Assembly (NCBI RefSeq): GCF_016859285.1
Contig: NC_053407.1
Span: 5,944,857 to 6,008,856, forward strand
From: Xiphias gladius
Taxonomy: Eukaryota; Chordata; Actinopteri; Istiophoriformes; Xiphiidae
Length of the DNA: 64,000 bases
Reading direction: 5' to 3'
A program made the translations under genes and the position numbers. Below, one piece after another: positions 1 to 57,400 of this stretch; position 1 is the stretch's first letter; every line of letters starts with the position of its first letter. Under the pieces are notes generated by a model. It had not been told where the DNA came from, did not search any database, and saw only the letters and a program-made list of their open reading frames with translations.

Positions 1-54
1 ACTTGTTTGTATGCTCTGAGGACAGTGGTTACAGAATAGCTAGGTGTTACCCAC

Positions 55-336
55 CTGTGCCTCGTCGGTGCCGCTGTCTCTGTCCAACTCCCCGATGTAG
101 TACTGCTCCATCCACCGCCGGGCGTTCTCCGAGTGACGGTGTGGGGGTCCTTCCATCTCCTGGCTCACGTCCTTGCCCGACCGCCTAAGTATCAGCGCCT
201 CTCCGCCCGGGTGCCTCCGCAAGAAGTCGGTCACGTCATACACCCTGGTCCCCAAAAGCACCCAGCAGGAGTCCTTGGTGCAGTGACAGGCCACCTCCCT
301 TATCGTAAAGAACCGGGGGGACGTGGAAGGAGACAT
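55..336 (-). CDS. fa2h: Fatty acid 2-hydroxylase, first coding exon (cytochrome b5 domain), partial gene
   Basis: This exon encodes the 94-residue N-terminus of fatty acid 2-hydroxylase, the ER membrane enzyme that makes 2-hydroxy fatty acids for sphingolipids. The sequence shows a cytochrome b5 fold: YDVTDFLRRHPGGEAL carries the heme-ligand HPGG, followed by GPPHRHSENARRW and EQYYIGEL, which match vertebrate FA2H closely. I chose the ATG at 336-334 because the protein then begins at the usual distance from the b5 domain; another in-frame ATG lies at 384. The exon ends in a consensus donor (CAG|GTGGGT) at 54 in phase 0, so the remaining exons should lie beyond the left edge. Same-strand FA2H 3' exons occur at 5012-5874, which is upstream of this exon and therefore out of order. 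The assignment to FA2H is firm; which copy it belongs to is not. Confidence 0.9.
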
Positions 337-3300
337 CCTGACGGTGGAGATGCAGAGCGTCAGCTCGAACCGAAAACTGAACACAGGGAAGTGAGCAGAG
401 AGACCTCCTTGGAGGGCCGTCGACCTGACTACTGGACTAACAGTTCAAATTGGCCGTTTACACCCTGCGGCTCTAAAACTCAAAAGTATTCACTAGAGGA
501 CAGCGACGAGAGAGGCGGGGTCTGTGAGGCGTTCAATAACCCGGACCGTGGGATACAAGTAAGTGACTATCACAGCAGCCTACAGATGTTTCAAAAATTG
601 AAACATATGAAACATGCCTCGTTTTTTTCTCGTTTTATAAACATAGGTTTTCTGTTTTCTAGCAAAATTAATCACCTTACTGCAGAGAAAAGACGAGTTT
701 TGAGTAAGACTATGAGAGATGCCCGAGTCCTATATGTTCCCTGAATGCAGCATTGCATCCTGACTCACCTGTTGATGTGAAAATTGTCGGGGCGACATTT
801 AAATCCTGAAGACTGCTGTGTAGAGCAAACAGATAATCATTTAATAATTGAATTACAGTCTAAACAAATCTCTCAACGTGAAGTATTCAAATTGACGTTA
901 ATTATAGACGTCAGATGAAGACTGATATAACATTTAAAAAACGGTCATGTAGTCCGCGAATACTTCCTGATTAATAAGTAAGGCCCATGCTCTGACGCAT
1001 TTAACGTCTAAGCTGTAAAGCTAAATACATTTGAATAACGGTAAATCTATATAACCCCGACATTTCTAAAGCAGTTTCTCAAAAATTGAGATTACAGTTA
1101 TCTTTATGTGCCTCGCGTTTAGGCAACTTCCTTGATGACGGGCTCGTGGAAGCCGGTTTCCGTCAATGTAATGAAAAAAGATCCTATAAGTCATCATAAG
1201 GTTAAACTTTTTCGAAATACTGATTTAGTATCTCAAAAAAAAGAGAAATTTTGTCAACATAATGATTTAGTATCCTAAAATAATGAGAGACCTTCTCAAA
1301 ATAATGACTTGAGTATCTCAAGAGAGTGTCGTTTTCACTTGTCATGAATTTATTTCCTCCGGGCAGGTGGTGACACAAGCCTTCAGAATCTCCTGCAGGT
1401 TAAACTGAACTTTTGAAACACTTTCAAAGCTGATTAACTCTGAAAAACTCACTATAGACAGACTCGAAAACACTCAATAGCCTGGCAGCATAACAACGCT
1501 GCAAATAACCCATAAGTCATCACTTTGTAAAAGACTGTATACTGGTTCTCTCGTACGCACAGGTAATTATCTAGCCCTGAAATTTAAAACAACCCCCACT
1601 TTTTTAAACCTCAGTTTAAGAAAAAATTATTGTCTTACATTAGGATAAATAGTATTCTTTCTCTCAAAAGCGGCAGGGAACGCTCAGCATAGTTTTCCCC
1701 GTTCATACAGTTTAGGTGCTACGCAAAAATGCTTATAATGGTAGGGAAAACCGTTTTTTTCCCCATCACATTGGCGATAGCTAACTGTGCTACTGGCCTG
1801 CCAAAAAAAAGGGAAGTCACATAGTGTTGAAAGCAGCAGGAGACCTAAAACTTGTCCGCTAGTGGCGTCCTGCATTTTTAGGTGAATATGTGATGTGCTG
1901 TCAAAGCCATGATGGACAAAGTGATGTGAATATTAATGATATTTAAAGTAAAAAATAAGTAAATAAATACAAGAAAAACAGATTAGGCTATTACTTGAAC
2001 AAGTGGCTCCACACTTAACAACACTTTTCAGATGATAGTTAGTTAGGAGCTTTCCAGAATGGTAGAAAAATAATGTCTGGTTGTAGGGCTTTATGATAAA
2101 GCTTAGTCAAAAACTAAAATAAAATGCAACTGAGATATCTACTGAAGACATCCCGGTTTACAATTAGGCCTCATTGTCCTGGTGGTTGTTTGATCCTGTC
2201 TACCCATGACAGACACTAAGATCCTTTGGTTATCATTGTTAATGTTAGAGTTAGGTCTCACCTCTGACCATAATCTGAGCTGGAGAATAACCCCAAGCAT
2301 AATGTCAGTTATGTTTTTAAGAACGCCCTGTAGTGTTACATAAAGAGTGTTTCATAAAATTTCCAGTTTAATACAATGGATTAGATTTTGCTGTTTAGCT
2401 TTAGCGGATTTTATTTTACCTTTTTTTTTGGCTAGGTAAGGTACTGAACATACCGACTATGAACAACAACACATTGATCAACTCTCACACGGTTAAACAC
2501 ATTCATATCAACGTTCATTGCTGCCTGTCAGAAAGCCAGTGTCTTTTACCAATTTAAAAAGTCACTGAAATTTCTAAAATTTTTAAATCCTAGGGTCTTT
2601 AATTGCCTTGGTCAGAGTCAACATAGGAAGTGAGGAAGGGGCAGCCACATACTCAATCACTTCCCTGACCATACTATCAGCATCAGTCTGCAAAACAGAT
2701 GACATTCATACTGTCACATCTCTGCATAGTGTAGGTCCACGTGTTTAACTGTAAAAACAGTAAAATACTTACATTAGCTTTTAATGATGAATAGAATAGA
2801 GCAGAATAGATAGTATGGCACACAATAAAAAGTAATACATTGCCATATAATATGGTAAACTACAACAAAACAAAATAACAGATAAATGTGTTTTAAACAG
2901 TGCATTATCTCACAAGGGAATACAACACAATGCAATGTTTTAACCTGTTTGAGGTAGAGTGGTGAAGAAAACAGCAGGGGGCAGAAAAGAACCAAAGTAC
3001 ACATACAGTAAATGGGTGGGAGAGAGGGAAGTAGTGAGGTGTTGAGAGAGTTGGTGAAACATCAAGTGAAACAAGCCGCATAATCTGACCTCTTAGTAGT
3101 TGTTTTTTTTTAGGAAGTACACACTGCCACAGTGAAGTGTTAGGTCTTATTTTGGCAGAGGATTCAACACCTAAGTGATGATGAAAACTAATGAGCTGAT
3201 GACTGAAAGATGGCAGGGTGAAAGGGAACAGCACTTCAGGTGTTAGCAGAAAATTTTCACACACACACACCTCTCGTGTTAGCTTTGCATATGTAGAGAA

Positions 3301-4469
3301 AGGTTCTGACCGAGTCAGACCTCACTGTTCCCTTAGTTAATAATGAATAAACTATGCACTGATCCGAACATTTGTGTATGCTATACTGATGGGGCCCTCA
3401 ACGGAGATCAATATTATACCACAAAATCCATGGTTTTCAATAGAAGCAGGCAGTATGACTTGTCATTGCAGGAGAAGCACAGGTGGAGCTAACAATTGCC
3501 CCATTCAATTAATGTGTACCATGTCACTGAACCAACATGAACAATAGTTGGGTCCTAGAAGTTGGATACCTAATAGGAAGTAATGTTATAGGTGTGCTTG
3601 ACAAGTCAAAATGCCTGCTGTGAGAAAGCTCTATGATTATCTCTGTATTCTATATATATATTTCAGTAAACATTAACTTTAATGCACGGTTTTTCAAATC
3701 TTCCATGATTGTTTATTACATTTTTGTAAATTCTCAGTTGTTAATACAAAATGTTCATACCATCTCTCCCTCTATAGATATATAATTAAAGAGAAAGGTA
3801 AGGGTTAATTCTCTGTCAAATATTAGTTAATTTTGAATATGAAAGTATATTAGAGAGAAGAAAAAAGATGGGTGTATGCTTTATTACAAGTATTCTTTGA
3901 CCTATACACACGTTTCTTTTTATGTTACATAGTTCAATATAAATGCATTGTTAATCTTAAATTTCTCATAAGGAAGTTATAGGGGAAGTCAGGAGAAAGT
4001 TTTAATACGCAAGATTCTGAAAAAAAATTACACATATTGTAGCTGCTTCTTTAGACATTTAGTAAAGCTGTATCACACTTAAACCATGTAAAATATTAAT
4101 GCCTAAGATGGCCATTTTTAATGACTGCACTATTAGAGCAGAAGGAAAAATCTGCAGCATTTTAGTTCTTGAGTCCCTTTAACTTCCTAGAAAGGAACCA
4201 ATGAGTAATTGCTGATTCTTAAGAAATTTCCTGGAAACAGCTATGTATTTTGATATTAGCTGGGAAAATGGAGACCAATTAGTTCACTTCCAATTAGCTA
4301 ATTGCTAGCATATGCTACAAAGTATTTTAATCAGGGCACAGCAGATCTGCTGAACATATAAAAATGTGAAAAATGTCTTGAGCAAACACACAATTCAATG
4401 TATACCAATCATCCACAATATTATATAGACATAACATATAGATATATACTGTATGTTTGTATATGTATA

Positions 4470-4545: not shown

Positions 4546-5011
4546 TCTCTCTCTCTCTTTCTCTCTATGGCCCACATCTTTGCTGAATATTATAGCGTTG
4601 TGACTGGTGATCAGGTGACAACGTGGCTGGTGAGGTCAGTGCATTGAGAGTTCATATTTTCCTGTTGGTTTAGTTATAAAAGTGTCACAGAAAGGCCTCA
4701 CAACTGTGCAGAAATCATTGTAGTTAGGAAATAGTGCAGAATGGTTGACACGCACACGGTTGACAGAGGAGAAGAAAATAATGTGCTGATGGCTGAAATC
4801 AAAAAGGAGGCCGATATGTGTTATAGTGTACATAGATCGATTCGTTGCAATTCATTTGTAGGAGTCTTCAGAAGTGGATCTTCCTCCTTGGTTGTTGAAA
4901 TTATGGCTGCAGAGACTGAACTAATGGTGTTACAGTTGTTAAAGCACGTGGGCTGATTTCTAAAGAAGGTGGTGACAAGCCCTGTGGCCCTTCAGGAGAG
5001 CCGTTTCTATG
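337..5011. other. fa2h 5' flank and intergenic DNA, no gene seen
   Basis: The first few hundred bases are probably the 5' leader and promoter of the left-edge fa2h copy. No coding exon could be supported on either strand, and I looked in particular for FA2H exons 2-5 and found none. At about 1220-1330 a degenerate AT-rich motif (ATTTAGTATCTCAAAA and relatives) repeats three or four times. The rest is AT-rich single-copy-looking sequence up to the (GT)n tract at 4478. Confidence 0.6.
4478..4558. repeat. (GT)n microsatellite with (TC)n tail
   Basis: About 33 uninterrupted GT units are followed by a short CT-rich run and preceded by TATATG-type repeats. The open frames that cross it are products of the repeat and are not genes. 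Confidence 0.97.
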
Positions 5012-5874
5012 TTAGAATTTCTCATCAGGGATTAGTGTGTTAAAGGGGTGGTCCCAGAACGTGGAGGTGATTCCAAAACCTGGAGAGGAAAATAAAGATT
5101 ATATTAGATTGATCAGACAAAAAATGCAAAGAAAATCAAACATAAAAATTAAATATCTTCCTCAATAGTCCAAGTTTGGTCTGGTTTCCAGTGCTCACCT
5201 GCTCTTTGGTGTTCAAAGTGGTGTTTGACATGGTAGGCCTTAAGACTATACATATACGACCCTCTCTTTGGCGAGCCGTAGTGAAGGTAGTAATGGATCA
5301 TATCGTACACGACGTAGCCGCACAGTCCTCCGACAAACACAGATATCCCAAGGATCTCTGGGAGCGTGTTGCGGAGAATTGCATAGAAACTTCCCACTAC
5401 TAAGGAAGCCAGGCCAGGGGGGAAGACCAGCCGAGAGCCGTCAAACGGAGACTGTGGAGAAAAGAAGTTTCTGTCATGCACTGAGACATGAAACTGTAGA
5501 CGTAGAAACTAGCAAAATACAGATAAAAAAGCTGATTCTTAACACAAGTGAACAGTATTTTATCTAGTTTTTTTCTGCTTTTCAAACGCAAAAAAGCTTG
5601 CTTGTTTTAAGATAACCATAAAAGATCAGTGTCAATTATAACTACATAATGGTTATAACATGATAACACAGGTCAGAAAAGTTCATGTAAAACTAAAACT
5701 ACTGTACAGTATGTAGAATAGGAGAAGAGCTGTTTATTACCTGCAACATGAAATTATTCATTAATGATGTGCCATAAAGCACAACATAATAAATCATTTC
5801 ATGATTAAACCAGTTTTACAAGCATGTGTTTGTGTTTGTACCTTGTGGTGCTGTCCATGCAGGAGAAAATGTAG
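5012..5874 (-). CDS. fa2h: Fatty acid 2-hydroxylase, 3' exons only (end of exon 5, exons 6 and 7)
   Basis: Three consecutive FA2H exons read leftward: 5874-5842 (11 codons ending HGQHHK), 5451-5199 (253 nt) and 5079-5012 (68 nt, ending at a TAA). They join in frame through consensus splice sites. The protein holds the catalytic histidine boxes of the hydroxylase domain: HGQHH, HYYLHYG and HVKHHFEHQ, then the conserved end [19 protein letters not shown]. No stop or frameshift is seen. The upstream part of exon 5, which should encode the IHRFLFHMKPP-like segment, is absent: a (CA)n/(TA)n tract begins directly before the eleven codons. No exons 1-4 were found between 5880 and 19500. It may be the 3' remnant of a tandem fa2h duplicate, or one gene whose order was scrambled in assembly at the microsatellite. 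Confidence 0.85.
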
Positions 5875-5995: not shown

Positions 5996-7059
5996 GTGGT
6001 AAGTGACTACAAAAATAATAGTGTTGCCAATAATAAATCAATAATGAATGAATATATACTTAGCTGTTATTGGAGCTTTTCCTTCAAAAGCATATTCTAA
6101 CTGCTTTTTTAAACAGTTTTAAATCAACAACTGGGTAAAAACAGAACACAACAAATTAAACTGAACTGTCTAAGAATTTTGTCAAGAGCAGGGGTTTGAA
6201 GCCAGGTGGGTTGGTGAAATACTTTTAACTCAGCATTTAAAACAGCAAAATTTCGCTCAATTTGCTGGGTTGACATAAATCCACATGAATTATTCCCACT
6301 GAGTTAAATTTGAGTGTATTTTGACCCATGAATTATGGCCGAGGTGCATGTGTTTGAATAATGAGTTGAGACGGTGAGTTTGAATGATGGTTTGATTTCT
6401 TGGCAGTTCAGCCCTTCTCCTATTTCTTTTCTTTGCAGACTAGAACACACATCAGAGTGAGTGTGTGTCTAATCATCTATTGTCACTTCCCATCAGTGAT
6501 GTGTAATATTGTATTGATTGACGATATATAATGCATCAGTGCATCACATTGTTCAGGCACGTCAGTTTACACTGTGACACCTGCTTCCCTCCTCACCCTG
6601 ATCCAGACTTTTGTTGTGCACCTGTTTTCCTCCCTCTATCACTGTCTTTTTATCCCCTTTCCTCCCTTTTTGTCATCTTTCTCTTCTTTCTTGTCATCTT
6701 CCACTCTTCTGCCTGACTCTGTTTTCTTTTTTAATCATCATCATCCACTAGTTTTTCTCCTAGTTCCCAGAATTACAGCGGCTTCTAAATTTACCCTACA
6801 TAACAAAAGAGTCCTCAGTAATAGACTGCATGTTCAAGTCTGTAACCTGAACCAACAGGCAAGTGCGTGTGTGCGTGTGTTAGTGTGTGTGTGATGTTGA
6901 GAGTGACCTCACCGTGGTGGTGTCAGAAGTAGGCGGGGTTATTTTGTGTTTTATGAAGAACGATTGGCCTGTTGTCTGGCCGGGTCATATCAGCAAGTAT
7001 AAGAAGGCAACGATTCACAAACTAATATTTTTTTGACTACAGACCTTTAACGGTCCTTC

Positions 7060-7575
7060 ATGGCTACTGTTGTTCCTGTAAGTATCTACGTGTGTGTGTC
7101 CTGTGTGCATGTTTTTGCATGTCCATCTCAAACTTTAGAAATGACTCAGTTCTGCCTTTAAGTGCTGTATCATTCATAAAGAGTCATGCTCTGTTTTAAT
7201 GGTGACCTGAGGTCACTGTTAGAGGTTATCAGGCAGATCAGCAGGTAAAAGTGGAAGTGTCAGTAGTGCTTAAATTGTTACTGTCAATATTTTTAGGAAA
7301 CCTGGATGACATTTTGTGCATAAACTTAACCATTTGAAAAATGAATTTGTCAAATGTAATTTTGCTATTAGTACTGTAGCTATTGGATATGATCAACGGG
7401 TATTGTTTTCTCTGCACATGAAAGAGATACTGTAGCAGAGCGGTATTATGTGTACAAATGTGTGTGTGCATGAGTAAACAAATGTTTGAAGGCCAGTCTA
7501 CATGATGAAGTGTTGGTCCTGTAATTGAAACTGCACAGCTGGATTCTCTTTCTGAGATCACCCTTTGTGTGTGTG

Positions 7576-7671
<96 letters not shown>

Positions 7672-7757
7672 TGTGTCTAGGGTTTCTGATGGAGTGGGTG
7701 ATTAAATCTGCGAGAGGAAGACAGAGGCTCGTATGCTAATTAAAATGGTGTGATATG

Positions 7758-7789
<32 letters not shown>

Positions 7790-10236
7790 AGTGTAACATT
7801 TGAGGTGTGAATGACAGAGGTACACAGCTGAGCCTGTAGCTGCTCACATAGCCTCATTGCTCTACAGTATCTATTATGCTCCAGTAGATTATCATGTTGG
7901 GGGGGGCTAATAGCAACTTGTAAATACATAATTATCAGTATTTCCAATGATGTATCAGTCATCAAATAATTTCTTAAGTAACAAAGAGTGTAAAGGGAAT
8001 ACAAAGCATTGTCAGTTGCAGATACAGACACATATCACACAGCAGAGTCCATGAATCACCCTGCACATTTAGTGTTTATCACTGTATTAATTTTAGGCAG
8101 TAACATGTAGAGTCAGCCTGTACCTACAGTCTGCAGCACCTTGTCAATCCATATTTCAGTGCATCCTTAACTACATATATGTAGTTAAGGATGCAATAGC
8201 TTTGTAGTTCATTTGTTTCAAACATAGGGTGGTAGTTGTCCATATAAGTATATCATATACTCACGTAACAAATACCATCTGATTTACATTATCGGGGGAA
8301 AATGAGCAGAGTAAATCATGACGGCTAAGACAACTTAGTGGCTGTAATTATGATTCATCATATATACAAAACATATTGAAGAGGATCGGGTATGTGTGGA
8401 AAAATAATTTGTGTATGTTGAAAGTCAGAACAGTAAAATATCTCTATGCAGGGTACAGCAAACTTGATCACAACATCTAACAATCCCACTCATCTTCCAT
8501 GACTCCCAGTTCGCATCCTGCTATGCCAGTGTTCAGCCGCTGCAGCTGTTTGGGAAAGGACCCAAAGGGGGCAACTATCTGTCACTTCTCACATACCGGG
8601 GCCCTCATTGCACCCCACGACCCCGACTGGCATGCCATGCTCCCAAGATGACCCTGCGGCAGATCTGTTGCATGCTGAAAGTGATGAAGCAGGTCAGAAA
8701 CAGAGAGGCTGCTGCTTCTGCTGCTGCCTCCAGGTGAGGAACAACTCTCCTGCAAAAGCCTTAAACTGATGGCCAAAAACTGGTGCAGTAATTGGCAATG
8801 GCACTTTACTTTTATAAGCTAATAGAAATATGAATACATAAGACCCTCTGTCTTAATGTTGTACCGTCATTCACTGCTGGCTCTTGCCTCTTAAGTCTAA
8901 TAACCATGTATCTGTATCTCCATGTATCTAACCAGTGTTGCCTCTTTACTAAATAAGCCAAACAAGACAAGAGCCATGCCAGCAGCTCTTTTAGGCTTTA
9001 CTTAGCAACAGTGCTGTTTTAAACTAATTGCTATTGTCAACATGCTAACACTCACGATTACAATGCTAATGCTGACATTTATTAGGTAATGTTTACCATG
9101 TTCCAGTGTTCACCATCTGAGTTTCGTATGTTAGCATGCTGACATTTTAGCACTAAACATGAAGTACAACTGAAGCTGATAGAAGTATTTGGCTATAAAT
9201 GAAAGTATTGGACAAATGAGTGCCATAACCAAAATTTTGAGCCAATCCATTATCTAGATGCTAAAATAGTTTGCTGGATAAGAGGAAATTCGACCTCCCG
9301 TTGGTGCCACAGGCAATGTTTAGAGATCAAGTCAATAGGTAGCATTCTCTAGGTACTATGAAAACATGTTCCAAATTTCAAGGCAATTCATCCTATAGTT
9401 GTGTCAGTCTGGAGCAAAGTCGTGGACCAAGCGACCAACCAACATTGCCATACTGCCGCTAGCATGGCTAAAAATTGTATAATCTTTAATGTTTGGATAG
9501 TTATTTACCCCAGGACATATAAATCACCACTAAAATCTCATGTAAATCAGAGAATAGTGATCCATTTTTATTTTCTTGTGAGGACACTAACATCATGTGT
9601 AAGCGTAATACAAAATAGATAAAGACAAGAGTAGAGAAAGTCCCGAAACCTGAGTCCACGACTAGAGTAGAAATGTAGAAAGTAGAAATGTAATATTTAG
9701 TAAAGCACTAAATTACAGTATACTTTACTACTGTTTTAACATTTAGGAACCAATTTCTAATAAGGCATCCTGTATACATTTTTTAAAAATTGTAACTAAT
9801 GATGCCATTAATGGTTAATGAATCATTGACCAATGCTTTACAGTTCAGAAATAAATCATTAATAAGAAGAGCACGTTTTTGGGTTGCCAAGTTGTAAAAA
9901 TCATTACAATACTATTATTACATTATTGATGTATTTAGGGAGAATACTAACCAGCCTGTTTGTGCTGTTCTTTGCTGTCCCACTCTGGACTGTGATCACA
10001 CCAGTGCTTGGATCCTCCAGTTAATAATTAAGTGCTCTCATGTCACTTCCACAGCAACTATTCATTCCCACTTCCTCTTCTCCTTTCTCTGCCTCTGGAT
10101 CTGGTCTCTCTCTCTCTCTCTGCACAGGAAGCAAGGGTCTGCATCTCCGACCCCAGTGTCGCCTGGCACCAAGTCTGAGAAGAAATGCATCCCAAGCTGT
10201 TTCAGACAAAAACGCAGTATAAAACGCGTCGGCTAA
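7060..10236 (+). CDS. Candidate gene, 3 exons, 116-aa basic protein of unknown family
   Basis: I do not recognise this protein. Exons are 7060-7077 (MATVVP, donor CCT|GTAAGT), 8510-8733 (acceptor CTCCCAG, donor CAG|GTGAGG) and 10128-10236 (acceptor after a long CT tract, TGCACAG). They join in frame (18+224+109=351 nt) with one stop at the end. The middle exon stays open for 74 codons. The product has no signal peptide or membrane segment. It has a cysteine-rich middle (LACHAPKMTLRQICCMLKV), an alanine-rich run (EAAASAAAS) and a very basic tail with two cysteines (KKCIPSCFRQKRSIKRVG). An in-frame TAA lies just upstream of the ATG. A TATA-like TATAAG stands at about 6998, and an acceptor-like tract ends at 7041, so a 5' non-coding exon is possible. 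AATAAA at 11040 fits a 0.8-kb 3' UTR. It is my reconstruction, without family support. Confidence 0.55.
7576..7675. repeat. (GT)n microsatellite in intron 1 of the candidate gene
   Basis: A nearly pure GT run of about 48 units, interrupted once near its end. A second shorter GT run lies at about 7756-7793. Confidence 0.97.
8160..8195. repeat. 36-bp perfect palindrome
   Basis: TGCATCCTTAACTACATA is followed directly by its exact reverse complement with no spacer. Symmetry ends abruptly on both sides (G versus A). It lies in the intron of the candidate gene, 315 bases before its second exon. Confidence 0.95.
9020..9475 (+). repeat. Teleost interspersed repeat copy (plus orientation)
   Basis: The segment contains phrases typical of a repeat family common in fish genomes: TTAGCATGCTGACATTT, CCAAATTTCAAGGCAATTCA, CAGTCTGGAGCAAAGT and GCCGCTAGCATGGCTAAAAA. 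A copy in the opposite orientation lies at 54945-55515. The family assignment comes from memory of teleost sequence, not a search. Boundaries are approximate. Confidence 0.7.
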
Positions 10237-11039
10237 CCCATAAGCATTGGCTGACCATAACCAACCCTTTAACCCCAGCAGATACCCATTTACCACCCAG
10301 TTACCACTCTCACAGTGACATGGGAGATCATCACCTGCACCCCTCCAATGGAAAACTTACTTCAGATTATCCTAATTTGGACAGCTAGCCTAGCAGTGTG
10401 ACCTAGGACGTTGGAGGATGACGTTCACTTGACTTGCGGTCTGTCAGGAGAAGATGACAGGATCTTATTCCTAAACACCCTTTGCTTTAAAAGTGGAGTT
10501 GCTCCTGAGATTCTTTTAAGATGAAAAGAGCTTTAACTACAATTTTTAAAGTGCTTCCTGAGTGTTTTCTGTTGTTTTGTTAACAAGAATGTAATTTTTT
10601 TGACTCTTGTCATTCTTTGTATTTCTGTTGTGGTCAGTCTCTAAATCCAGGACATTTCACCAGACAATCTCATCCTCTTCTCATCCTCTCCAAAAGACTT
10701 TTAATGAAGCTTATTTGCCATGTTTCCATATCTTTTCTTAATAAAACCCAGACAACTTTTAATCACTTTACTCAATTTGATAAACAAATGTTTGCTTATT
10801 CAAGAAAAAAAGTGTACAGCTCTTATGTTAGACCACTTTAAATATTAAATATGTTTTCCTTAATCAGTACAACATCACACAAAAAATGTAACATACTCAA
10901 AAACCTAGTATTAAATCTGGCAGATGAGGTCACATTTAATCATTTAGCTAAAATTTAAGTCTAAATTAAGGAAATGACAACCTTCTCCTCTGTTCTCTGA
11001 ATGCAGTGTTGTTTTTGTGAATGTGTTTCTTAAATGTGC

Positions 11040-13424: not shown

Positions 13425-14580
13425 CTGTCCTGGTGAAAATTATTGGCACCCCTAAATTTTAAGTACAGACTAACATATCTTCAGAAATAAATGTAAATTA
13501 ACCAATTTTGTATTATAAAAATATTTTAATAAAATGTCCAAGGTTACTGAACAAAAGAAAATAAAAATAAAAACTTGCATAACTGTGAAATGATGCAAAA
13601 AAAAAAAAAAAGTGACTCAGACACAGTATTTGGCACTCTTCACTAGTATTTGGTTGAAGAACCTTTGATGACAGCCTCTAAATGTTTCCTGTAGCCATCT
13701 AGAGGTTTCTTGCGCATGTCTGCTGGTAATTTCTGCCACTCTTCCATTGCTATGCATTCAAGCTCTTTTAAATTTGCAGGAGTCCTTTTTGCAATGGCAG
13801 ATTTCAGCTCTCTCCAAAGGTTTTAAATGGGATTGCTGAAAGACCCAAGACCTTCATCTCTAAACTAGTTTTCTGACACTGGGTAACACATTTTGCTCTA
13901 AAATTCCTTGGTAATGTTCTGATTTATTCATCGCTCCTTTGATACATTCAGTAAAGCAGCCCCAAAGCATGATAGAACCTCCATCATGTTTTACTGTAGG
14001 CAGGCTGTTCTCTTCCTTATGGGTTTCACTTCGTCGCCTATAAACAAACTGATGCACTGCATTCTAAAAGAGCTCTACTGTGGTTTCACCTGTCCATGGA
14101 ACATCATCCCAGAAAGACTGTGGCTTATCTATGAAAGTTTTTGCAAACATCAGTCTTGCCTTTTTGTGCCTTTCTTTAAATAGTGGTGTCCTCCTTGGCG
14201 TTCGCCCATGGAGCCCTACTTGGTTTGATTTGCAGTGTATGGAACGGGCTGAAACCACCACTCCAGATTGCTCCAGGTCAGCTGAAGCTCTTTAGATGTC
14301 TTGTGTGTTGTTTTTTCCACAATCCACATCAACCTTCACAGACTTCTCTCATTGAGTTTCTTCTTAGCACTATGTCCTGGAAGCATCTAAACATTTTTAT
14401 GACCGTGGAACTTCTTGATAACATCACGAACTGTTGAAACAGGGAGTTCAAGATCTTTGGTGATCGACTTGTAGACTTTGGAATTATGTTTTTGATAATA
14501 GCATTTCTGTTGCTTTCAGACAGCTCTTTTGTATTCACCATTGTGAAAAGGAAGAATGATGACACAGCGAAAAGGCACTG
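13425..14580 (-). mobile_element. Tc1/mariner transposon, decayed copy
   Basis: The left end TCCTGGTGAAAATTATTGGC and the following 150 bases match the long terminal repeat of fish Tc1 elements and the element at 42780-44298. The transposase reads on the minus strand. It begins near MVNTKELSESNRNAIIK (14540), continues through HGRTPRRTPLF, FWDDVPWTGE and [12 protein letters not shown], and ends in LKELECIAMEEWQKLPADM and VIKGSSTKY. The frame is broken. The stretch that should carry the second catalytic aspartate (DNxPKH) is deleted around 13830-13860. The right terminal repeat is missing, so the copy is 5'-truncated relative to its transposase. Confidence 0.9.
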
Positions 14581-16595
14581 TAGTTCAAATATAAGGAACT
14601 AGTTTAACATTTTTAGAAAATATGCTTATTATTTTTTCTTGCCAAGACTTAGATCAGAAGATTGAAAGCACTCTCATGTCTGTAAACTGAATATGAAGCA
14701 GCAGCCAACAGCTCAAATTGGCATGAAGAATGGCGACTTCAAGACTCTACAAAAGACAGTGCATCTGGTCAAGTAATAGTCCAACACATAACCCCCTGTA
14801 AAAGCGCAATATGTTCTTTTTACACTTAAGAGTTTTGTTTGGATTAAACAAACAAAATATGTCTTAGTGAGCTTTAAGGGTGTTGGTACCTTTAGATAGA
14901 GCCAGGCTTGCTGTTAATGCTAAGCTAACTGTCTGCACCTTCAAATTCACAAAGACAACACTGCATGCATACAGACACATATGAGAGTGGCATCAATCTT
15001 CTCATCAAAGACTCAGCAAGTCATATAGCTCTCATCTCATTATCATATCAGTAGCTCGTGTACTTGAAATGTCACAACATGTCTGACAAAAGCTCACAAT
15101 GTAACTGATTTCAGTGTAACGAAAGTTCTGCTGTGAGGTCATGTGAAGTGGCCATTAAACGTAAGTAATCATTTCACTGAACGGAGTAATGTGCAAACAA
15201 TCAGTGTCATTCTTAGTACTGATGGATGTCTTCAAGGTCAATCGGAGATTAGGATCTAGTACATGGGGTAAAGTACATGGGGTTAATTTTTTTGGTTTTC
15301 CTGCCACAACTTTAATGTTTTGATTCACTCATTCTGCTTTCATCAGTGTCATTTCCAGCAAAAAAAAAAAAAAGCCCTAATAAACCCACTGAAAACTACT
15401 GACACCAACAAATGACAAATGAAAGTCAAACCAAGTCAGCAGCTAGCTGGTGAACATATGGAGCAGGTAACAGCTTCCATAAGGTTTAATCATTAGCAGC
15501 AATCATGAGGTTTAAAGCTGCATCATCGGATTTATTTTTTTTTCATACTATCACCTTTTAAGTTAATATGGCAAACGTATTAGTGAACAGTTGCCTATTT
15601 ATACATCCAGCAGCTGCAAGGCACCATTGATATTTATCGTCGAGTCGTGTTTGTTTCCAGCTGCTAAAGTCCAATATTCCCTCCTCTTTTAGGTCTGTTT
15701 TGGTCTCCATTTCCTAAAAAAATATCTGTCTCTTTTAGGTGCTAAATGCTCCACTATTTTAACCATCTATTTGCTAACTTCGTCTGAATGCTGTTTGGTG
15801 CCATTAGGTTAGCTACCTCACCTGTGGACGTGACAAAAAGAGAGCATCATCCGTCATTTCAGCTGGCTGTGAACTAGGTGTCGCAGCTTTACACAATAGG
15901 CTCAACTTTCACAATCCCCCACTCTCATTACAGAAGGTCAGTGTCTGTTCAATTCTGTTCTGTCATAACACAGAGTGCAGGTGGACTTGTCTTACTGTAC
16001 TGCATCAGCTTTGCAGCATTTCACACATCATTTGGGACATTTTAGTTGTAGGGGTTGGTTTTCAGTGTGGGTTACAGTACATGTGAACAAAGTAGAGGTT
16101 ACAAGTTGGGGTTTAAAATAGACTCAGTGGAAAGTTTTTGATGATTACATCTCTCTTTGTGGGAGTGGCTGCTGAAAGAGGCAGTTCATTCAGCTAAAAA
16201 TGAAATTAAAAAATGCCAATAAAACACAATATTCTGAATATTAAACTTTTTTTCAATCTCATATTAAGACTTTTTCTTGGGACTGTCTTAATCTCGCTCT
16301 TAAATGTATAAATTCATTTTATTTTGATTCTATGTTTATATTATTAATTTTATAATATATTAGTGTCTGCTGCTTTTATCAATGTTATTAAGGGTGTTCT
16401 TATGCTCTGTCAATGTGTTTTATCTTTATTACTCTGGAAAGCACATGATGGACTACATTTATACCCAAGAGTTGTAAATGTATGATGCTTTGCCAATATC
16501 TCAGGCAGATATTGACTTTGATTAAAGATACTGTCCAGTCAATTTGGACTTTGGAAAAGGCATACAGAGCGAGGTGCAGACCAGTGTGAGCTCCA
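14581..16595. other. Intergenic DNA, partly old repeat
   Basis: No gene is supported. The part at about 15600-15900, with AGGTGCTAAATGCTCCACTA and CTGAATGCTGTTTGGTGCC, resembles a teleost interspersed repeat. The remainder is AT-rich and unremarkable. Confidence 0.5.
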
Positions 16596-44719: not shown

Positions 44720-47158
44720 TGTTTTATACTTTTTATACTATAGTTACGAATACTACAAGTTGTGTTTTGGGTTCACGCGGAGTGATTTGTGAATGAAACA
44801 AGCTTTTAGAGAATCATGACTCGTGTGAGAAGCTGCATACTCGAAGGGGCAATGTACAAAAGCCTCAATGAAAGGAAGTTGTGGACTTAATCAGTATTGA
44901 AACCTCACCGAGAGGTTGCAACAAAGTCATATCTTGCCATTTACCTTTTACCATTTATTTACACAGAGGAAGTGATTTGTCATCAATTAATACAGTTAAA
45001 ACGACTATTGTCCTGTGCTTATACAAAGAATAACTTAACTGTCCAAAAGAACAACAATTACATGAATTTTTAAAACAATGTGAAAGGTTTACCAGAGGGA
45101 TTTTCTCCACAAAGAAATGTCAATGGCTGAATGTAATATGACATATTGTACTCTTTAGATGTCACCACATTATTATGACACACAATGTTATGATAATTCA
45201 CAGCAGATATGATACTTAAGAGTATATCATCTAGGTCTTCACCAGTGAGGGCTGGATAGCACAGTACAACCACTCAAGTCAGAAGGATTCTGGCTGCATT
45301 TCCACAAGGACAGGGAATCAAATTTTAACAGTAGTCTGAAATTTTCATGTCTGTCTAAACAGAGAGGAAATAACAAATAAAAGATCTGACCTATTCCATA
45401 AGCAATAAAAGTCCCCTCATTTGTGCCTGTGTAAAACCTGCCTATCTAGTCACCTGGTACACACTAAACCTGGGAAAAACATATGTACCGAAACATCAAT
45501 ATACTGTATGGAACATGGAAAGTTATGTGAAACAGCTGTTCCTTTGTAATTTATGGATAGAGGTACTGCAGGAGTGCATGCTGACCAGATAGGCTGAAGT
45601 AAAAAGCAGTATTCCTATGCTGAATATAGTGGGTAATTTCATTTTAGAACCTCAATTTTGCTTGAATACTAAAACACTGTTTCAAACAGTTAAAAAAAAA
45701 AATTCACTATCATTTGGCTTTTTATTGCCAAATTAGAAAGCCATTTGGATACAACCATCTAGAAAACAATCTGGAAAATGATTTAAAATGAATTTCATTT
45801 GCTGAAAATCAGAAAAAGTACTCAAGCTCCTCTTACCTGAGTTTCTGGTACTCTCGCCCACATCTCATGATCTTCATCAGCAGATAAAGTTATCATCATG
45901 AGGCCTAAAAATAAAACTATGGTCTGAAGTTCGAACCAAAGTCCCATACATAGGTCACTTGAGCACAACTGAGCTACCTCCACAAAAACTCATCAAAACT
46001 CCATTTATTGATAAAGACCATGGAATGCAGTTGAAAGTCTGAAGAAATAAATGGACCTCAAGTTCAGATTTTTTTTTTTCCAAAACTCTTGACATATCTT
46101 TTTGTTTGGTTGTTGAGTCAAATAGCATATTTTTCAAGTTTCTCAAGGTCCACTTGCTGGCTTTTTCTAGAGCTTTCAACTGCATTTCCCGGTCTTCTTC
46201 ATAGCATAGAACAATTTCAATGAATGGAGCCAACTTTCTATGGATAAAGGTCATGAGATGCAGTTCAAAGCTCCTGAAAAAGATATTAAGTGGACTTTGA
46301 GTAAAATGTTTTTTGTTTAAAGCTTATTGTTTGACCTTTGAGTGGCTTCAGCATGACTAAAATCAACTTCCATATCCCAGGTATGGGTCCAGTCCTTCAG
46401 CACATGATTCATGTAACATGGACAACACAATAAAAATAAAGCTCTAGGACAATCAGGGAGTTACAGCTTGGCTGCATGCAGAAAAATAAAAAAAGATCAA
46501 CAAAAGGATCACTAGAAATCAAATGAAATTACATGACAATAAAATGTATCTAGTCGTTTTTGGTAAAAGCCTGCTTAGGTTTTTTCACTCATTCACATAT
46601 ATACCAAGCACTGATACATATGACCTGGTGCACTGAGAAAGATATAAATAAAATATCTACTTAAACCATTTAGCCTAACAAAATTAGTCAAAGAAGTTCA
46701 GGATTCTATTTCACAACACTGATAAAAGATCTGACTTTGATTGATAACACAGATAGTGGCACATACATTATATCCCTGGTTTTTGACATGTCCTTTATCA
46801 TAATATGGATTTGGTGGGTAAACTCTTGGGTTCTTTCAAATCTCAGACCAATATAAAAGTCATCGTATTTAGGCTTTGCTCAAGAGTAAACAACCTGACT
46901 TTAACATAAATTGTAAAATTACAGCTATAAAATTAACTTAAAACTTTGATTCTGCAATTGCACTACAAAATTTCAATACTTTTTCTTGAGCAATGTGGCA
47001 TGTACAGGGGAATATTTTGGCAGTCAGTGTTCAGAGAGACAGATGAGATGAGTCATTCCCTGTCTGTCCTTCATATGGCTGTGTGTGTGTCAGTGTAATA
47101 TTACAGCACGTGAGTAAAGTGGTCTCCCTGCCAGGCTGTCCCTCAGTATCTGCTAGCA
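44720..47158. other. Convergent intergenic region usb1/pla2g15, with repeat
   Basis: No gene is supported. The right part should hold the pla2g15 3' UTR on the minus strand. About 45975-46300 is an interspersed repeat: it contains two versions of one phrase (GATAAAGACCATGGAATGCA and GATAAAGGTCATGAGATGCA) and the central phrase GGTCCACTTGCTGGCTTTTT. The 99-codon open frame across it looks like repeat sequence, not a gene. Confidence 0.6.
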
Positions 47159-48352
47159 TCAGGGCGAGAACAGCACGGTCTTGATGTAAGCCACAGTCGT
47201 CAAGTTCAACAACATGTTCACATGTTCGTTCCCTGGAAGCTCTTTTAACATCACAGGCTGTTTCTGCTTTCCTACCCACTGCTTGCACTGGACAGCGCTT
47301 CGCAAGTTCACTGTCCCATCCCCATCGCCGAACACCACCGTGGGTTCCACGTCGGGGAACTTGTCGGAGTACCGGAAGGCCTCAGATGTGTTGATACCGC
47401 TGCCATATAAGCAGTGGATGGCCACGCCGGGGGGTGTGAGGTCGGCTACGAGTGGCTCCGTGTCCTGACGCATCAGCCAGCCATCCTCAAAACCGATGTC
47501 TGAGTAGAGCCGCTTGTAGTCCAGCATGGTGTAGTTGGTGGTGGGTGTCTGCACCAGGACCTTAAGGTGGAGGAGAAAAAGATAGTTTCCTGGTTGCTTT
47601 TTTTGGTTATTTCTACAAAAAGCTAATGAATAAGAAGTTACAGCATGTTCGCACTAACTATTACATTTTTATCATAAATAGTAAAATAGTGCATCATGTG
47701 GAGAGACTTACTCAGTAACTGTTTAAAAGGGTTACCTTTAATTAAAGCTGCATTAATTGTTTTTGGCCATTTTGCAAGGTACATGCCTAAATCCTGAAGT
47801 TAAATCCAATACCTTTTAATACCTTTTTTAAGACCTTATATTTTAATATATTTTAAGACCTCAATGCCAATTTCAGTTATAAGTAGTTACATCAGTAACA
47901 CACCTTTAACTTACATTTACTATACACTGATTTTGAGATAGCAAAACTTAACAGTCTTAGTTCGCAATAACTTCTATCGACCACTGTATCCATACAACAG
48001 AATTCAGATAGGCTGGGAGGTAACAAAGCTAAAGAGAATAAATTGAGTGACTAACCCAAAGACAACACACACACGCACACGCACACGCACAAAGGGTTGG
48101 GTGATGTTTGCGCCTAAATTGAAACATGCTTTCACTTGGCACCTCTTTCATTTTTGGCTCTCCTTGAAATACATATTCATCGATCCTATGGCTCAACTTG
48201 ATTCCTGTGGAAATCGCAGCAAATAAGCCATAAATAAGACATAAGTAATAAATACAGCATGAGCAACACATTATCTGAGAAACAGCTCCGGTGCGGCTGG
48301 AACACAGCAATACAGGCACAGTGCACACACACACAGTGCACACACACACAGT

Positions 48353-48410
<58 letters not shown>

Positions 48411-51400
48411 CATCTTTGGGCCAAGAGTGGGCATAGGGGAGCAGCCAGGAGGTGGAGACAGCAGAACGTTGCTGAGAGCGAATCTTCAACGGGCTAATTA
48501 CTGGGATGCGGTTATTATCACCTGTAGGAAAAAAACAGAAAGTAGTGATAGCGAACTGAAACTGTGCTAAGAATTTCTAGACCAAGACCCCAAAACAAGT
48601 GAGGAGAGTTTCATTGTGTGCCTTTATTAAAAAAAACACTACTCATGTCCTGAGAGACATACTGTACCTGAAACCCATGACCCATATACAGTATAATGTA
48701 TTGTATGGTATTGTTTAATCGAGAGTATATCAGTGTTTGATTCTCCAAGGTAACATTTACCAACATAAAGAATCTGATGTAACTGTCCTTTATGCAATTT
48801 GGCTTTAGAAACTATGAAGTAACCTAGTAAAGGAACAGAGGGTGGAAGAGAGCAGTCACTGTGTGCAATTGGAGTTTTTACACAGGCTTCAGTTGCTTCA
48901 AATATAGCTGCATTTGGTTACTTCCTACTTTGGGGCCTGACAATAATGGCTGAATGAAGATTTAAAGACTTCACAGGTAACACTTCTGGACTGGGTTGCA
49001 CAGGCTATACATAAATCCATCACTAAGTTTGTGTGTAAAGTCATCTATAAGTTCTCAGTAACTACTAGCTTCTTTCAAAAAAAGGGATATATTAATACGA
49101 GTGGCATCCGTAAAACTTAAGAAATGTCTTAGCTAGTAAAAACTTTAGTAATGTGTAAATTGATTGCTAGGAAACATCAGTGGCGTCATCCACTCAAAAG
49201 CAATCAAGTCACTGCAACATCATAAGCACATATCTTCCAAAAATAACAGTTTTGGGGGACAAATGATATACTAGCCTTAACTGCCACTCCTATGCAAAAG
49301 TAATTTTGCATAGGAGTGGCAATATTTTGTCTTATTTCAATCTGCATACATGGAGAAATATGTGTGTTTCAGGGTTAGTACTCTTCATACAATTTTGGGT
49401 CATTTTGCAAAACTTTATTGGTGCAACATTTTGCAGTTGAAGGTATGTTGTGTTATTTTTGTGAAAAGTAATTTAAAATCTCTCCAGTTTATGTCATAAT
49501 TAAAAAAACATTTGATCAAATGTCACACATATGGGCCATATTCCATATTTTCTCTTTTACTCTTGAAACTATGTTGGCTTAGGTGGGGAGCCTGCTTGTG
49601 TTACATCTGTTTTTGATGTAACACAAGCAGAGACCATTTATGCAAGAAACCCTGTGAATGCTTTATTTCTATACATCTGCATACATGTGGGTTTCTTGCT
49701 TGACTGCTTATTTTGTAATATATTGAAGAAAAAACATATTTTAGGTTATTTATTTCTTTTATGAGAATTTTAATTATCTTTGGAATGTTAGTGTGTATAT
49801 TGTGCTTTCATCTTTCCTCTTTTTATTCTGGACTTTCCCTGAGAAGGCACAGAGAGCATTAATGCAAGAGAGACCAGACCTTGTGCATGTGTTTCTCTAC
49901 TATTGCAGGGAAGTTATGATGTAGTCTTGCAATAAAGTCCTGGAAGAGTTGACCCTAGTCCACTGTACAACACAACACAGACAGACCTGCAACATATACG
50001 AAGTAGTAGTGCTTCCATAATATTAGTTTCATCTCTTACCAGAGATGATCACGCGGAGGGTCTTGGCCACTCCAGCCCACGGTGGACCCAAACAGATGAA
50101 AGCTTTGATGTATTTGTCTTTCCAAGCCTGAGGCTGCTGGTTGAGGAAGTACAAGGTGTACATGTTGCCCATACTGTGAGCAATGAGCACCACAGGCCCA
50201 CCAGCTTTCTCTGCCATCTGTTCAATCATCTGCTGCAGTGCCAGGAAATACTCTTTATTCTCATCTGGAAGAGGAACAAAGAATGACAGAGAAGATGAGT
50301 AAACAAATTCCCCCCACTGGCCGTGCTGTGAAATTTTCTGCATTTCCAATATTAGGGTAGAGTGCTTCTAAGAACTGACATCTGATTATTTCCTGGTTTG
50401 GACAGAAAAGCTCGAACAGCATTGGACCAGTTCAAAAATATGGCTTGATGGGTATAGTTTCCCACACTTCCCAAGGTTATTTACACCTATTTATTCTGAC
50501 TTCACTGCCTTTAATACCCATTTCAAAATAAAAATCCATGACTGTCAGGAACAGTGTTTAAAAAGATGTGCTCAAATTTATAAAATTATCATCATCCAGT
50601 TTTTTTTGTTTGTTTGTTTGTTCCCTCATATCACGCCAAGTAATAAACACTGAGTCCGAGCTCACAAGATGTACAATAAGTTTTGTTCATTTTAAGGTCT
50701 GCAAATCATTTAACATGCCTGCTAAGTGACCCTTTAAATTTCTTAAATCCTGAATTAAAGGGATTGTGTGTAAGAAGTTGGCCAAACGTCAACTTCATCC
50801 TCCAAACAAATAAGTGGCAGCATATTACCAGAAAGTTGGGATCTCCCTTTCCATTCCTCTGTGCCATAGTCAGACTGGCCATAGGGCATACCGGGACAAA
50901 TCCCAGTGGGCCACCACATCGGTGGACCATCAAAAAAATCCAGTTTTTTGTTGACATATTGCCAAACCTGCGTGGATTGGGAAAATGTTTTCCACACAGG
51001 TTTATCTTGCGATCTGATTATATAACTTTTAGGTTGTTTTCTTCAGTTTTTGTTAGACTGAGGTTGACAATTCCACACCCAGTCTGCCCAGTAAGAGAGA
51101 CAGGGAAGATGTAGTGGTTGCAGGAGTAGAGGACAAGCCATGAGAAGTCGAGGAACGCAAGGGAGAGTAGCTAAGGCAGCAGCATCAATAGCTGAGCTTG
51201 AGGAAAGAGAGGAGAAATGTTGCAGAGAGAGGACAGCTGCAACACAGGTTTATAGCCTACCAGTTACTACTTATTCATCCTCTCATGTTGGACTGAGGGC
51301 AGACTGGATGCCACAGTGACTTACTATTGCCTCTTGAGGTACAAAGTTCTATTACAAGACGGTACAGGCTGGGGCTAGCTGGTTAGCTTGCTAACTTCAG

Positions 51401-54400
51401 TAGATATCTCTGCAACACAATACGTAGATGTCTTTGACATAAAGTCAAAACTGTTATTTCTTCACATTCTTTTGATAATCTTAGTTAATTTCTGAATGTT
51501 TAAACTAAAATACTTACATATTGCCTCTTTCAACACAGAAATACATCACAAGGAAGCAGTAACGTATCCTGTCTGTATTTGTCGTGTGTTTTAATTGTGT
51601 CAGCTGCTTAAACCCACAAATCACAGACAGGATCTCCAAAGACCAGTTAATATACTGTATGTTCTTCTGTTCTAGTGAGGAACAGCTACACGAGCCAGAC
51701 CAGTCTCTCAAGTTCTTTTGTGTGATCAATGTATTTTAGATTTTACAGGTGAGGGTTCGACATTCATGGGTTAGGGTAAAGACTGAGGGAATAGATGTTA
51801 ATCAGGGCTCACTACCAGCATTTCTTTGAGTGTGTTTATGCGTGTTTGCTTACTTGGGGCTTTCCTCCAATCATAAGGAGCTCCTCTGACATCGTCATCT
51901 CTGGTGTAGCCCCAGTCTACCAGCGCTTGCACTATAGTAAAGAAATACATGCCTAGTAGATAGACACACACACAAACACAAGAAAGAAAAAATAAATCAT
52001 CATACATTCTAGTCTCTTACCCAAAACATGAGCACTGACAAAAGTGACAATCTGATTCTTGTCTGTCTATCTTTGTGAGAACCCATTTGGCCCTTGCGCG
52101 TGAGGACTTTTTTGGAGGATATTTTAAACGGTTCTCACTTCTCTAAGGGACTGTTTGGTTTTGTGCCTTCAACTCACCCACACTGCGTTTGCTGGGGTCC
52201 AGATACTCCAGTGAATACGTCTGTCCGAACCCCGGGACACGAATGTCCACACCTGGAGGAGACAAGGTGGTGTGTGTGGTCCTGTTGTACATCAATCTGC
52301 ACATATACAAAAATTGTGACAAGAAGAACTTTATCAGGATTAGTTCTGCATCTGTGCTGAACCACACACACTCACAAACACTGTATATACTCGCTATCAT
52401 TCCACAGTTGCAAATGTAAGAAAAGACATCTTGGTTTAGCGAGCAGAAGTGAACATATAGGGAAAATATTTTCAACATTTTTGTACATTTTTGAAAATCA
52501 ACAAATCTATGATTGTTAGATAAGGACTCACAATGGCTTTGGATATTTTCTAAACAAATTCTAATCAGCTTTATAATTTTTTTTTAACTTATGAGGGTTA
52601 AAACTCTGAATTTCACCTTCCTTTACCAAAATGTATTTAAGTTATTTCACTAAAACTGCCAATTGTTGACTTACACAGTTACACCTTTGCAGTATCCATT
52701 TAGCCCGATGCAAACATGAAAACATGTACAAACATTTACAAACCTGTAGCACAACTGTCATTTCTCACACACGTATACTTTTTAGTCTGTCATTCAAGTT
52801 GTCTAGGTTCTAGGTAATTTTATGTACATGGATTAGACCAGGGCAGTGTTCTTGATAGGTGATAACTTAGTTGGCTTGATTGGATTGCTAATGTTTTCAC
52901 ATTAGCCTGGATATTCCAGATCTCTGAAGCTGGTTTAAAATGTATCCAGAGCTGTAGACCTTAAAGTCCTTAAAGCAAGACTATGTCACTTAAAATAAGA
53001 AATAACACATTATTCCTCTTACAAATAAAAAGTTGATTTCATAAGCACTAAGAAGTGTAGCTGCTTTATTCAATACATTCAGAGGTTTTTCTACTACAGT
53101 CTTAATTGGTCTGGTATGACCACTACCCTCTGATTGCTAATGTCAGCAAACTTTGGATAGATACTTTTGTGTAAATGAGATTACTGAGGCATTTTAAAGA
53201 CTTTACAATTCTTTACTTGTGCTACTGCTAAATGTTTTAGTTGTCTTGCAAATGTCAATTGTGAACACAGTGGCTACTAATGAAAAAGCTACATAGGCTA
53301 GTTTTAAGCCCAAACTTATTCATGGTTGATTTAACTAATTGTCAGGAACAAATGACTCAATTTCTAAGAGAGATGCTGAGAAATGCTGTCATTAGATGTC
53401 AGATGGCAACATGTAGGTTGTTGAGAAATTGTCTGATCTGTTGGTGCAATTCTTACAATTTCAGAATTTTCACAATAGTGAGTTAGTTATACTGACATGA
53501 CAAAATACAGTATGCAACAAAATAAAATAAATGTAGTTTGGGATAGTATTAGTAATGAAAGAGCAATTTAACCAAATGTTTTCGATTAGAATATGTTTAA
53601 GGTGGTTAGACAGCTTTAAATTAACTATTGTGCAGCTTCAATAAAAAACGTTCTGTTTGTAGTCTTTGTCATGGCAGCCGATCAAGTGCAATCATTCGAT
53701 CAGCCAATTATATGAATATTGATCATGGTTTCCACTATCTATTAATATTGCCCTCATTTCACAATGAACAAACCGTACACCATTACTGAAGATAACTTTG
53801 TTCAAGATTAACAAATCAGTCCTCTGACTGCACTATTTAATTGCTTAATGGCGAAGTTCTCATTACAAGATAAATGTAGTTCACGGTTCTCATCTCTAAA
53901 TGAATAAAAAATGCAATACATATTTTCTGAAAACAGATTTTGTTCCAGTAAAACAATAACAAAACATATAACAGAATAAGTTGAATATTTAGAGCACAGT
54001 CAGACACAATATCAAGCCTTGAAGTCTTTTTTTAGTTGATAGCTGATGGACACCTTAAAGGCATGCTATCTCACCCTCTGTTTCCTTCCTTTCCTTGCTG
54101 ATAAATGCAGGGTTCAAAGGTCAGATTATCCAGTGTAGGTTGATTAGTGTTCGTAGAAAGTCAGCCAGGTCATTGAATCCATCTAGCTACTCCCTGATGA
54201 AATTTGGAATTTGCACCACGCCGTGTTTTTACAAAAATCAAACTTTCCCCATAAAACAGTGAAGGGAAAATATACTATCCTATTTGGTCACCACAGAAAA
54301 ATACTACAATATGGTTAATTATATTTTATGATTAACTATTACATAATAATAGTTCATTATAATATATTTTAAAAAAGGCTGTTTTCAACATTTAAAAATG

Positions 54401-57400
54401 GCAGCATCAGATTTCCCTGTTACTTTGATGCCATAAAACTGGAAAAATGGGACCTCATCAAACATTTTACAAGAGAAAATTCATTTTGTGTATTTGGTGA
54501 GGTGAAGAAATCCATCAGTGACTGACAAACCTTACTTTATTGATGATTGTATGTAAACGTTAAGACTCAAGCAAACAGAGACACCCATGCCATACCTTAT
54601 GTTGTCTATCCAACAGTCTATGGCTACAGGGACCAGCAGCTCCAGGTTGAGCCACAGAGTGAAAAAGGAGTCAGTCTTCTTATAGCAGATGTAATGGACA
54701 ACACTGGGTTTATCCAGCTTTGCCTCCAACTGGTTTCCTAGATCCCCAGGAACTGCAAAAGCAATGTGAGCTAAGAATTACTGCCAACTCACTTTGATAC
54801 ACTGGCAATATTTTATAACTTTTATTATGTATAAAGTAATCAGTAATTGACGAAAAAGAATGGTAATCAATAATCAAACCTATTATCAGGCTAAGCAGGT
54901 TGCTTAGTTTATTTGCTAAGTTTCGCCTTCTTGCTTTTTAGTCATGCTTTCAGCATGGCTCTAGGGATGGCAGTGTCTGTCAGTTTCTTCCACCAATTTG
55001 GTCCACATGGAAATATCTCAACAACTATAATAGTCTGTAACAGTGATCTGGACTGGACTATGGAATGGGTCCAGAAGATGAAACGTAATGATTCCCTGGC
55101 TGTTCCTCTAGCTCCACCATGAGGATCTGTGGTTTTAAGTGAAATGTCTCAACAACTTCTGGAATGATTACCATGACATTTGGTACACAAATAGAAGCCC
55201 CCCTTACGAAGAAATGTTATAACTCTGGTGACCTTTACTTTACCTTTACTAACCTTTACTTTTGTGTAGTTCCACCATAAGGTCAAAATTTCCCTTTCTG
55301 CAATGCTTTGCTTTGCTTTATGACCAAATACTTACTAAACTAATGACATTCCCATCATCCTCTACTTTACTTTATGTTTTTAATAACTCGAAAATGTCAG
55401 CAAATGCACTAAACCAATTTGGCAAACATGGTAAACATCATACCTGCTTAAAATCAGCACTTTAGTGCTGCCATTGTGATCTTATTAGCGTGCTGACGTT
55501 AACATTTAGCTCAAAGGAAAGCTGTACCTAAGTTCAGTCCCACAAAGCTCCTGGCATGAGTATACACACTTGTTCTTTCCTCCATGTAATCAAACATACA
55601 CAAAACACTGCAAATAAGTCCAAAGAAATTTATACTCATATACACAGCCAATTCTCCTGATGGTGGGGCTATAGCAAATGTCTTCATCACTTTGAAAATT
55701 CTAAAAAAAAAAAAAAAAAATCCACCATACATTTTTGAAGTTTACAAATAACTGATTTTTTTTTTTAAACGTAACTAAATTTGACTATTTAATTTCGCTA
55801 TCATTGGTTTAAATATCACAAAAGTACTGAATAACATGTTTCAACATGAAAAAGTTAAATGACTACTTGGGTCCTATAACACAAAGATATGTCAGGATGC
55901 TACAGTTACAAAATAAAAAAGGTAATATATGTAAATATATGAATGTTTAATTGACAGCACATTCATTTATCCTGAAATTTGAAAGTATTTACAGAGTAAA
56001 CACTTTGAATATTAAAATAGGTTCCCTATTTAGTCAAAATGTGAACTTCACACATATCAAAATATTTGGTAATAAATTGTCAAGCTTTTAATTTTTTAAT
56101 TTCTACTTTTCTTTTCTTTTAATAACACTGAGCCACACTTTCCAGAATTAACCACTATGATGCAAATTCAAATATTATACAATATGGAAATACTGTATCT
56201 TTCTGATTGTGGTGAATTCTGAATATATATTAAAACTTGCAATGGTCAATGTATTTCCTCTTTAAGCTTTTTGTTTAGCTCTTTGTCCCACTCTAAAATT
56301 CTTACATAGTTGAAAAGACCTTTCTGGTTGCCTCGCTGTCAGTGTAACACAACTTTACAAAAGCTCCACACAGGCTTTTGTTCATAACTGTAATAATGTA
56401 GAGTTTGTGGTTGTCTTTAGAAATGAATTTGAGAGTCAATAGTCAAAGTTTTGTTCAGTGGCAATTTGGACCCACTGTACTAGTAATGATTGAATCACAA
56501 GACAGTCAGTAGTATCTTGCCTAAGACAGAAGAGAGGAAACACATTTCTTTTTCTAATGCTACATTGATTTGTGTGTTATAACACCAATCCCTTATCTTA
56601 AACAATGTTTTGAAATCTGCAGGGACCTGGGTTTGTAACGGCAGCATTATGATGTGAGCCGTTTAAGAATAATTATTTAGAGATAAGTAACAAGAACAAC
56701 TTTTGGGTTGTGACCCAACCTTACTGCAGGAGGAGATCGCTAGAAAAGGCTGAAGATAGGGAACTAGTAAGAATTTGTAGAGAATCACTTTATTATGTAG
56801 CGGAATACTTGCAGAAATTTAAACATACATATGGTACATCCACAGATACTGGCTGATTAACAACAATCACAAACAAACAGTAAAAGATCACTGCGGATCA
56901 AACTGTTACACAGATTCTTATCATACACTCATGTAGTCAGACAAAGGTTGTGGTTGGGACTAAGCCAAACACAGATAAGATTCCTCTAAACCTAAGCCCC
57001 TTTCAATGAAGGAGTGGAAGAAGAAAAGGAATTGCAGAGATTTAAACTGGTAATAGATCTTTTGTAGTAAATCTTAACCTGGATTTGGAATTGGAATTTA
57101 TATAAAAGTTACACACTTTATTGTAAGACTAAAACAGAGTCCAGAAAACTCCATATAGAGACTTCTCCAGTATCCTATAAACTTAACTGGCTGCAGTGCT
57201 GGAGAGTCAAATTCTGCTCCAACTCAGTCATATGATCAAGGGACTGCTCCGACTGTAAACAATCAGCCTTAACACACGCGCGTGCGCGCGCACCCAAACA
57301 GTTCTAATTCACTGCAGACACAATGGTTGAATGTGCACTCGATCTCGCAAATGTATGTCAACATAGTGTGGTAATCAATGTTTTTTCTTGGTGATAATCC

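Follow-up and report, generated by a model that had tools for sequence, protein, structure and literature searches.

The closest described counterparts of the locus analysed here belong to two classes. Lineage-restricted (orphan) small-protein genes share with it a short length, few exons, the lack of a family match and an odd composition, although in our candidate transcription, translation and age are putative. Spliced long non-coding RNAs in which open frames are incidental likewise resemble it in combining good splice signals with a weak coding signal, whereas the codon choice in its second exon beats most shuffles in the joined frame, which sets it apart from them.

The candidate is flanked by a CSNK2A2-like gene and an FA2H-like fragment in a 64 kb stretch of Xiphias gladius DNA (referred to as the window), in which a first-pass annotation had proposed a three-exon gene for a basic protein. 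From the splice sites, the joined frame and the rarity of such a combination in shuffled sequence, we infer transcription and splicing, and we consider the case evenly balanced that exons 8510-8733 and 10128-~10760 belong to a genuine small spliced transcript of the plus strand. Exons 2 and 3 would then be transcribed and spliced together, with polyadenylation near 10760. If real, the locus would add to the small spliced genes that lack a family and offer a useful lineage-restricted case, and no general idea would be changed. It is exons 2 and 3 that are of practical interest, and exon 1 should not be assumed.

Gene model and its 5′ end

Checking against the sequence returned the exon coordinates and GT/AG borders of the first-pass annotation (Table 1), with exons of 18, 224 and 109 nt joining on the plus strand into a single continuous frame of 351 nt that encodes 116 residues and ends in one stop. 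The further descriptions of exon 2 as open for 74 codons and as richer in GC than its surroundings are also accurate, with a GC content of about 57% compared with 38.5-39.5% in neighbouring 2-kb bins. The product is basic, as had been claimed, and strongly so, having a computed pI of 10.5 with 21 Lys and Arg, 2 Glu, no Asp and 7 Cys. The remark that a simple open reading frame (ORF) scan would miss all of the exons is incorrect: exon 2 lies in an 89-codon stop-to-stop ORF at 8468-8737.

Table 1. Elements of the candidate gene and recognisable features elsewhere in the window
Feature	Position	Strand	Basis or remark
ATTGG (reverse CCAAT)	start 6963	+	Sequence
TATAAG, TATA-like	6998-7003	+	Sequence
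Exon 1 (proposed)	7060-7077	+	MATVVP, then GTAAGT; unsupported
Exon 2	8510-8733	+	74 codons plus 2 nt, GC-rich
Intron 2	8734-10127	+	GTGAGG...CACAG
Exon 3	10128-10236	+	End of split codon, 35 codons, stop TAA
AATAAA, possible poly(A) signal	10740-10745	+	Sequence; about 0.5 kb 3′ of stop
Cytochrome-b5 exon	43-444	-	Pfam
Fatty-acid hydroxylase-like exon	5152-5508	-	Pfam, 22.6 bits; cut-off of 31 not reached
HTH_Tnp_Tc3_2 (Tc3-type transposase piece), ORF	14064-14291	-	Pfam
Two protein-kinase pieces	21.5-22.2 kb	-	Pfam, both just under cut-off
C2H2 zinc-finger gene	35.8-37.7 kb	-	Pfam
HVSL piece	41 kb	+	Pfam
LCAT-family pieces	47-60 kb	-	Pfam

The three-exon model survives in part, as exon 2, intron 2 and exon 3 stand above chance, but the exon 1 start is at chance level. 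Exon 1 contributes just 1.3 bits to the exon-chain score described below and ranks eighth among 20 possible upstream initial exons of phase 0. Its donor score is matched or beaten by 185 of the 7865 GTs on both strands, which ranks it no higher than the top few per cent. The CCAAT-like and TATA-like signals are located 57-97 nt upstream of the exon 1 ATG, and the complete group of CCAAT, TATA, ATG and donor occurs once in the window when both strands are counted, whereas 40 mononucleotide block shuffles average 1.5 occurrences and contain up to 5. The TATA-like box and the AATAAA to which the first-pass annotation pointed are both present, but the plus strand of the whole window holds 63 TATAAR and 75 AATAAA motifs; neither signal is therefore evidence for a gene.

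Exon 1 is possible, yet it is unsupported and carries no weight. The exact 116-residue gene, with this exon included, gains from the joining of the frame and from the placement of the promoter-like signals ahead of the ATG, but we judge it improbable in view of the rank and small contribution of exon 1 and the chance-level frequency of the composite start pattern. Longer models with additional upstream exons were disbelieved, as they gained at most 5.3 bits.

Splice signals and exon-chain scores

Splice sites were scored with a simple weight matrix for the 7865 GTs and 8068 AGs found on both strands. For the donor after exon 2 the score is 8.4 bits, a value reached by just four GTs; for the acceptor before exon 3 it is 11.7 bits, reached by a single AG, with the CT run ahead of this acceptor accounting for part of the score. 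The acceptor before exon 2 belongs to the top few per cent only (its score is reached by 261 AGs). Among open intervals of 222-600 nt bounded by AG and GT on both strands of the window, exon 2 is the sole one with sites scoring at least as high as its own.

For whole gene structures, we used a home-made search for three-exon chains that combines codon score, splice scores and start context, allows introns of 70-4000 and lists 23 chains that do not overlap on a strand. The originally proposed chain of exons 1, 2 and 3 scores 53.1 bits. With another first exon (4567-4629), the pair of exons 2 and 3 reaches 62.5 bits and is the fourth best of the 23 listed chains, behind an LCAT-like chain (109.5 bits), a zinc-finger chain (85.9 bits) and a kinase chain (62.6 bits), and ahead of a USB1-like chain (51.8 bits). 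The zinc-finger chain is one long ORF cut up and thus a positive control for the coding score, not for exon structure.

When the window was dinucleotide-shuffled 60 times in 800-base blocks, the best chain averaged 34.5 bits (maximum 44.1); another 60 shuffles in 150-base blocks gave 38.7 bits (maximum 52.2), and the score of the originally proposed chain was reached in none of the 120. Block shuffles destroy microsatellites, whereas the reversed window keeps them on both strands; its best chains reach 28.5 and 28.8 bits on its two strands. The half-chain of exons 2 and 3 alone scores 51.9 bits, compared with a maximum of 36.1 bits in 60 shuffles when the best 200 chains per strand are considered. 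Given the shuffle maxima and the reversed-window scores, exons 2 and 3 therefore exceed chance, though narrowly against the finer shuffle, where 52.2 comes close to 53.1.

The absence of so high a score from all shuffles at both block sizes, together with the uniqueness of the exon 2 interval, argues against a chance arrangement in which a GC-rich island carrying an open frame sits between good splice-like sites and gives rise to no transcript. Such an arrangement is nevertheless a serious contender, which we place well below an even chance. The candidate was picked by a reader out of the entire window, its exon 1 and promoter signals occur at chance level, and a presumably false chain antisense to the LCAT-like exons reaches 55.1 bits in the real window. 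The amino-acid composition and the weakness of exon 3 discussed below are also in its favour.

Coding signal and search for relatives

The coding signal was assessed with two codon tables, one trained on the window's own genes and one human table. In exon 2, the proposed frame is the best forward frame with both tables, though narrowly with the window-trained table, which gives 0.153 as compared with 0.144 for a frame containing four stops. In exon 3, it ranks first among the forward frames with the window-trained table (0.146 versus 0.036) and second of three with the human table. Out of 2000 dinucleotide shuffles, 45 attain the codon score of exon 2, four of them while also open, and 88 of 2000 attain that of the two exons joined. 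For exon 3, the corresponding count is 681 of 2000, and this exon is therefore without a coding signal of its own. When the same test was applied to 18 known coding pieces, 12 gave fewer than 10 in 2000, one gave 17, and five zinc-finger pieces gave 40 to 331. Most of these known pieces thus outscore exon 2, which is comparable to the weaker ones among them. The coding evidence is moderate for exon 2 and absent for exon 3.

The open frame of exon 2 is by itself weak evidence, because a second of the three forward frames is also open and 952 of 4000 dinucleotide shuffles of this exon retain some open forward frame. In 4000 shuffles run apart from the 2000 described above, 13 combined an open given frame with a score as good, and 59 did so in any forward frame. 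Coding in the second open frame (RILLCQ...CCFCCCLQ) was rejected with 6.2 bits versus 23.0 bits for the proposed frame, and searches with its translation found nothing in Pfam or PDB up to E 10. GC content stays flat across the three codon positions of exon 2 (0.57/0.55/0.59), while in each of the nine known coding stretches tested it drops at position 2. The 110 residues from exons 2 and 3 include two acidic ones, where 13.1 would be expected in a vertebrate protein and 7.1 in random translation. With vertebrate amino-acid frequencies, their log-ratio of -2.4 bits means that random translation fits slightly better than vertebrate protein. Synonymous codon choice in exon 2 contributes +13.0 bits. 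Taken together, the coding signals give a mixed picture.

Strong intron signals beside weak coding signals, along with the second open forward frame, would suit a spliced non-coding RNA whose exons meet at the 8733/10128 junction and in which the open frame is incidental. The synonymous codon choice and the small proportion of shuffles that reach the exon 2 codon score in the joined frame speak against this, and we regard a non-coding RNA as rather unlikely. A previously unlisted, lineage-restricted fish gene is also a tentative reading and, in our estimate, falls well short of an even chance; its product, strongly basic and Cys-containing, would measure about 64-116 residues and have no relatives among known families. 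The readings overlap, and the probabilities that we attach to them do not sum to one. Of the protein gene put forward in the first-pass annotation, what held up is that exons 2 and 3 look beyond chance; as a protein gene they are no more than a candidate.

If the candidate transcript is translated in the proposed frame, the N-terminus of this lineage-restricted product is uncertain, and a start at the ATG at 8648 would yield the 64-residue form. Guessing from composition, the most likely mode of action would be that of a mostly disordered basic peptide. On the same guesswork, a possibly helical stretch, MTLRQICCMLKVMKQVRNREAA, would bind a partner, and the basic Cys-containing tail, KKCIPSCFRQKRSIKRVG, would serve in nuclear or membrane contact.

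Up to E 10, neither Pfam nor NCBIfam contains a match to the 116-residue product, in agreement with the initial statement that it could not be matched to a known family, and PDB contains no credible relative. The one PDB match, found with phmmer, aligns residues 16-64 to chain T of 6w1s (MED25, Mediator subunit 25) at E 0.22 and 15.2 bits; a single reversed-sequence control had no PDB match up to E 10. We took the MED25 alignment as chance, as this E-value is not significant and there is no Pfam match up to E 10. Searches for exon 2 in viral and prokaryote collections gave 17 and 77 pattern matches, respectively, none of them confirmed, and little would be expected there for a fish gene. A known RNA family was rejected with no matches at gathering thresholds across the whole window. 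A repeat within the window was likewise rejected, as comparison with the window at E 0.01 gave nothing beyond self-matches for exon 2, for exon 3 with its downstream sequence and for the promoter stretch. Antisense FA2H exons were set aside by eye, exon 2 being unlike FA2H on both strands. No naming of the locus was found in the abstracts covered by our literature search.

Genomic surroundings

A Pfam scan of ten ORFs identified the neighbouring features listed in Table 1, which we take to be the teleost set of FA2H, CSNK2A2, ZNF319, LCAT/PLA2G15-like and USB1. Between about 6 and 19.5 kb, inspection by eye of ORF lists (at least 35 and at least 32 amino acids) revealed no recognisable gene besides a transposon. 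Beyond the ORF matched by Pfam, Tc1/Tc3-type transposase pieces were seen by eye at 13600-14600 on the minus strand. Within intron 2, the plus-strand stretch at 9020-9480 resembles what we presume to be an interspersed repeat of perch-like fish.

The FA2H-like gene on the minus strand at 5012-5874 has its last two exons, both bearing splice sites, at 5012-5079 and 5199-5451; of the exon before them there is a stub at about 5842-5874, cut short by a TA/CA repeat. All of these were read by eye. Further upstream, as far as 14.5 kb, ORFs of at least 35 amino acids showed no earlier exons of this copy, which looks like a pseudogene or a 5′-truncated tandem copy. Downstream, at 43-337, lies a distinct FA2H-like first exon. 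The same C-terminal part of the LCAT profile is matched twice, at 47162-47653 and 59305-59709, and the minus strand at 47000-62300 probably carries at least two LCAT-family genes in tandem.
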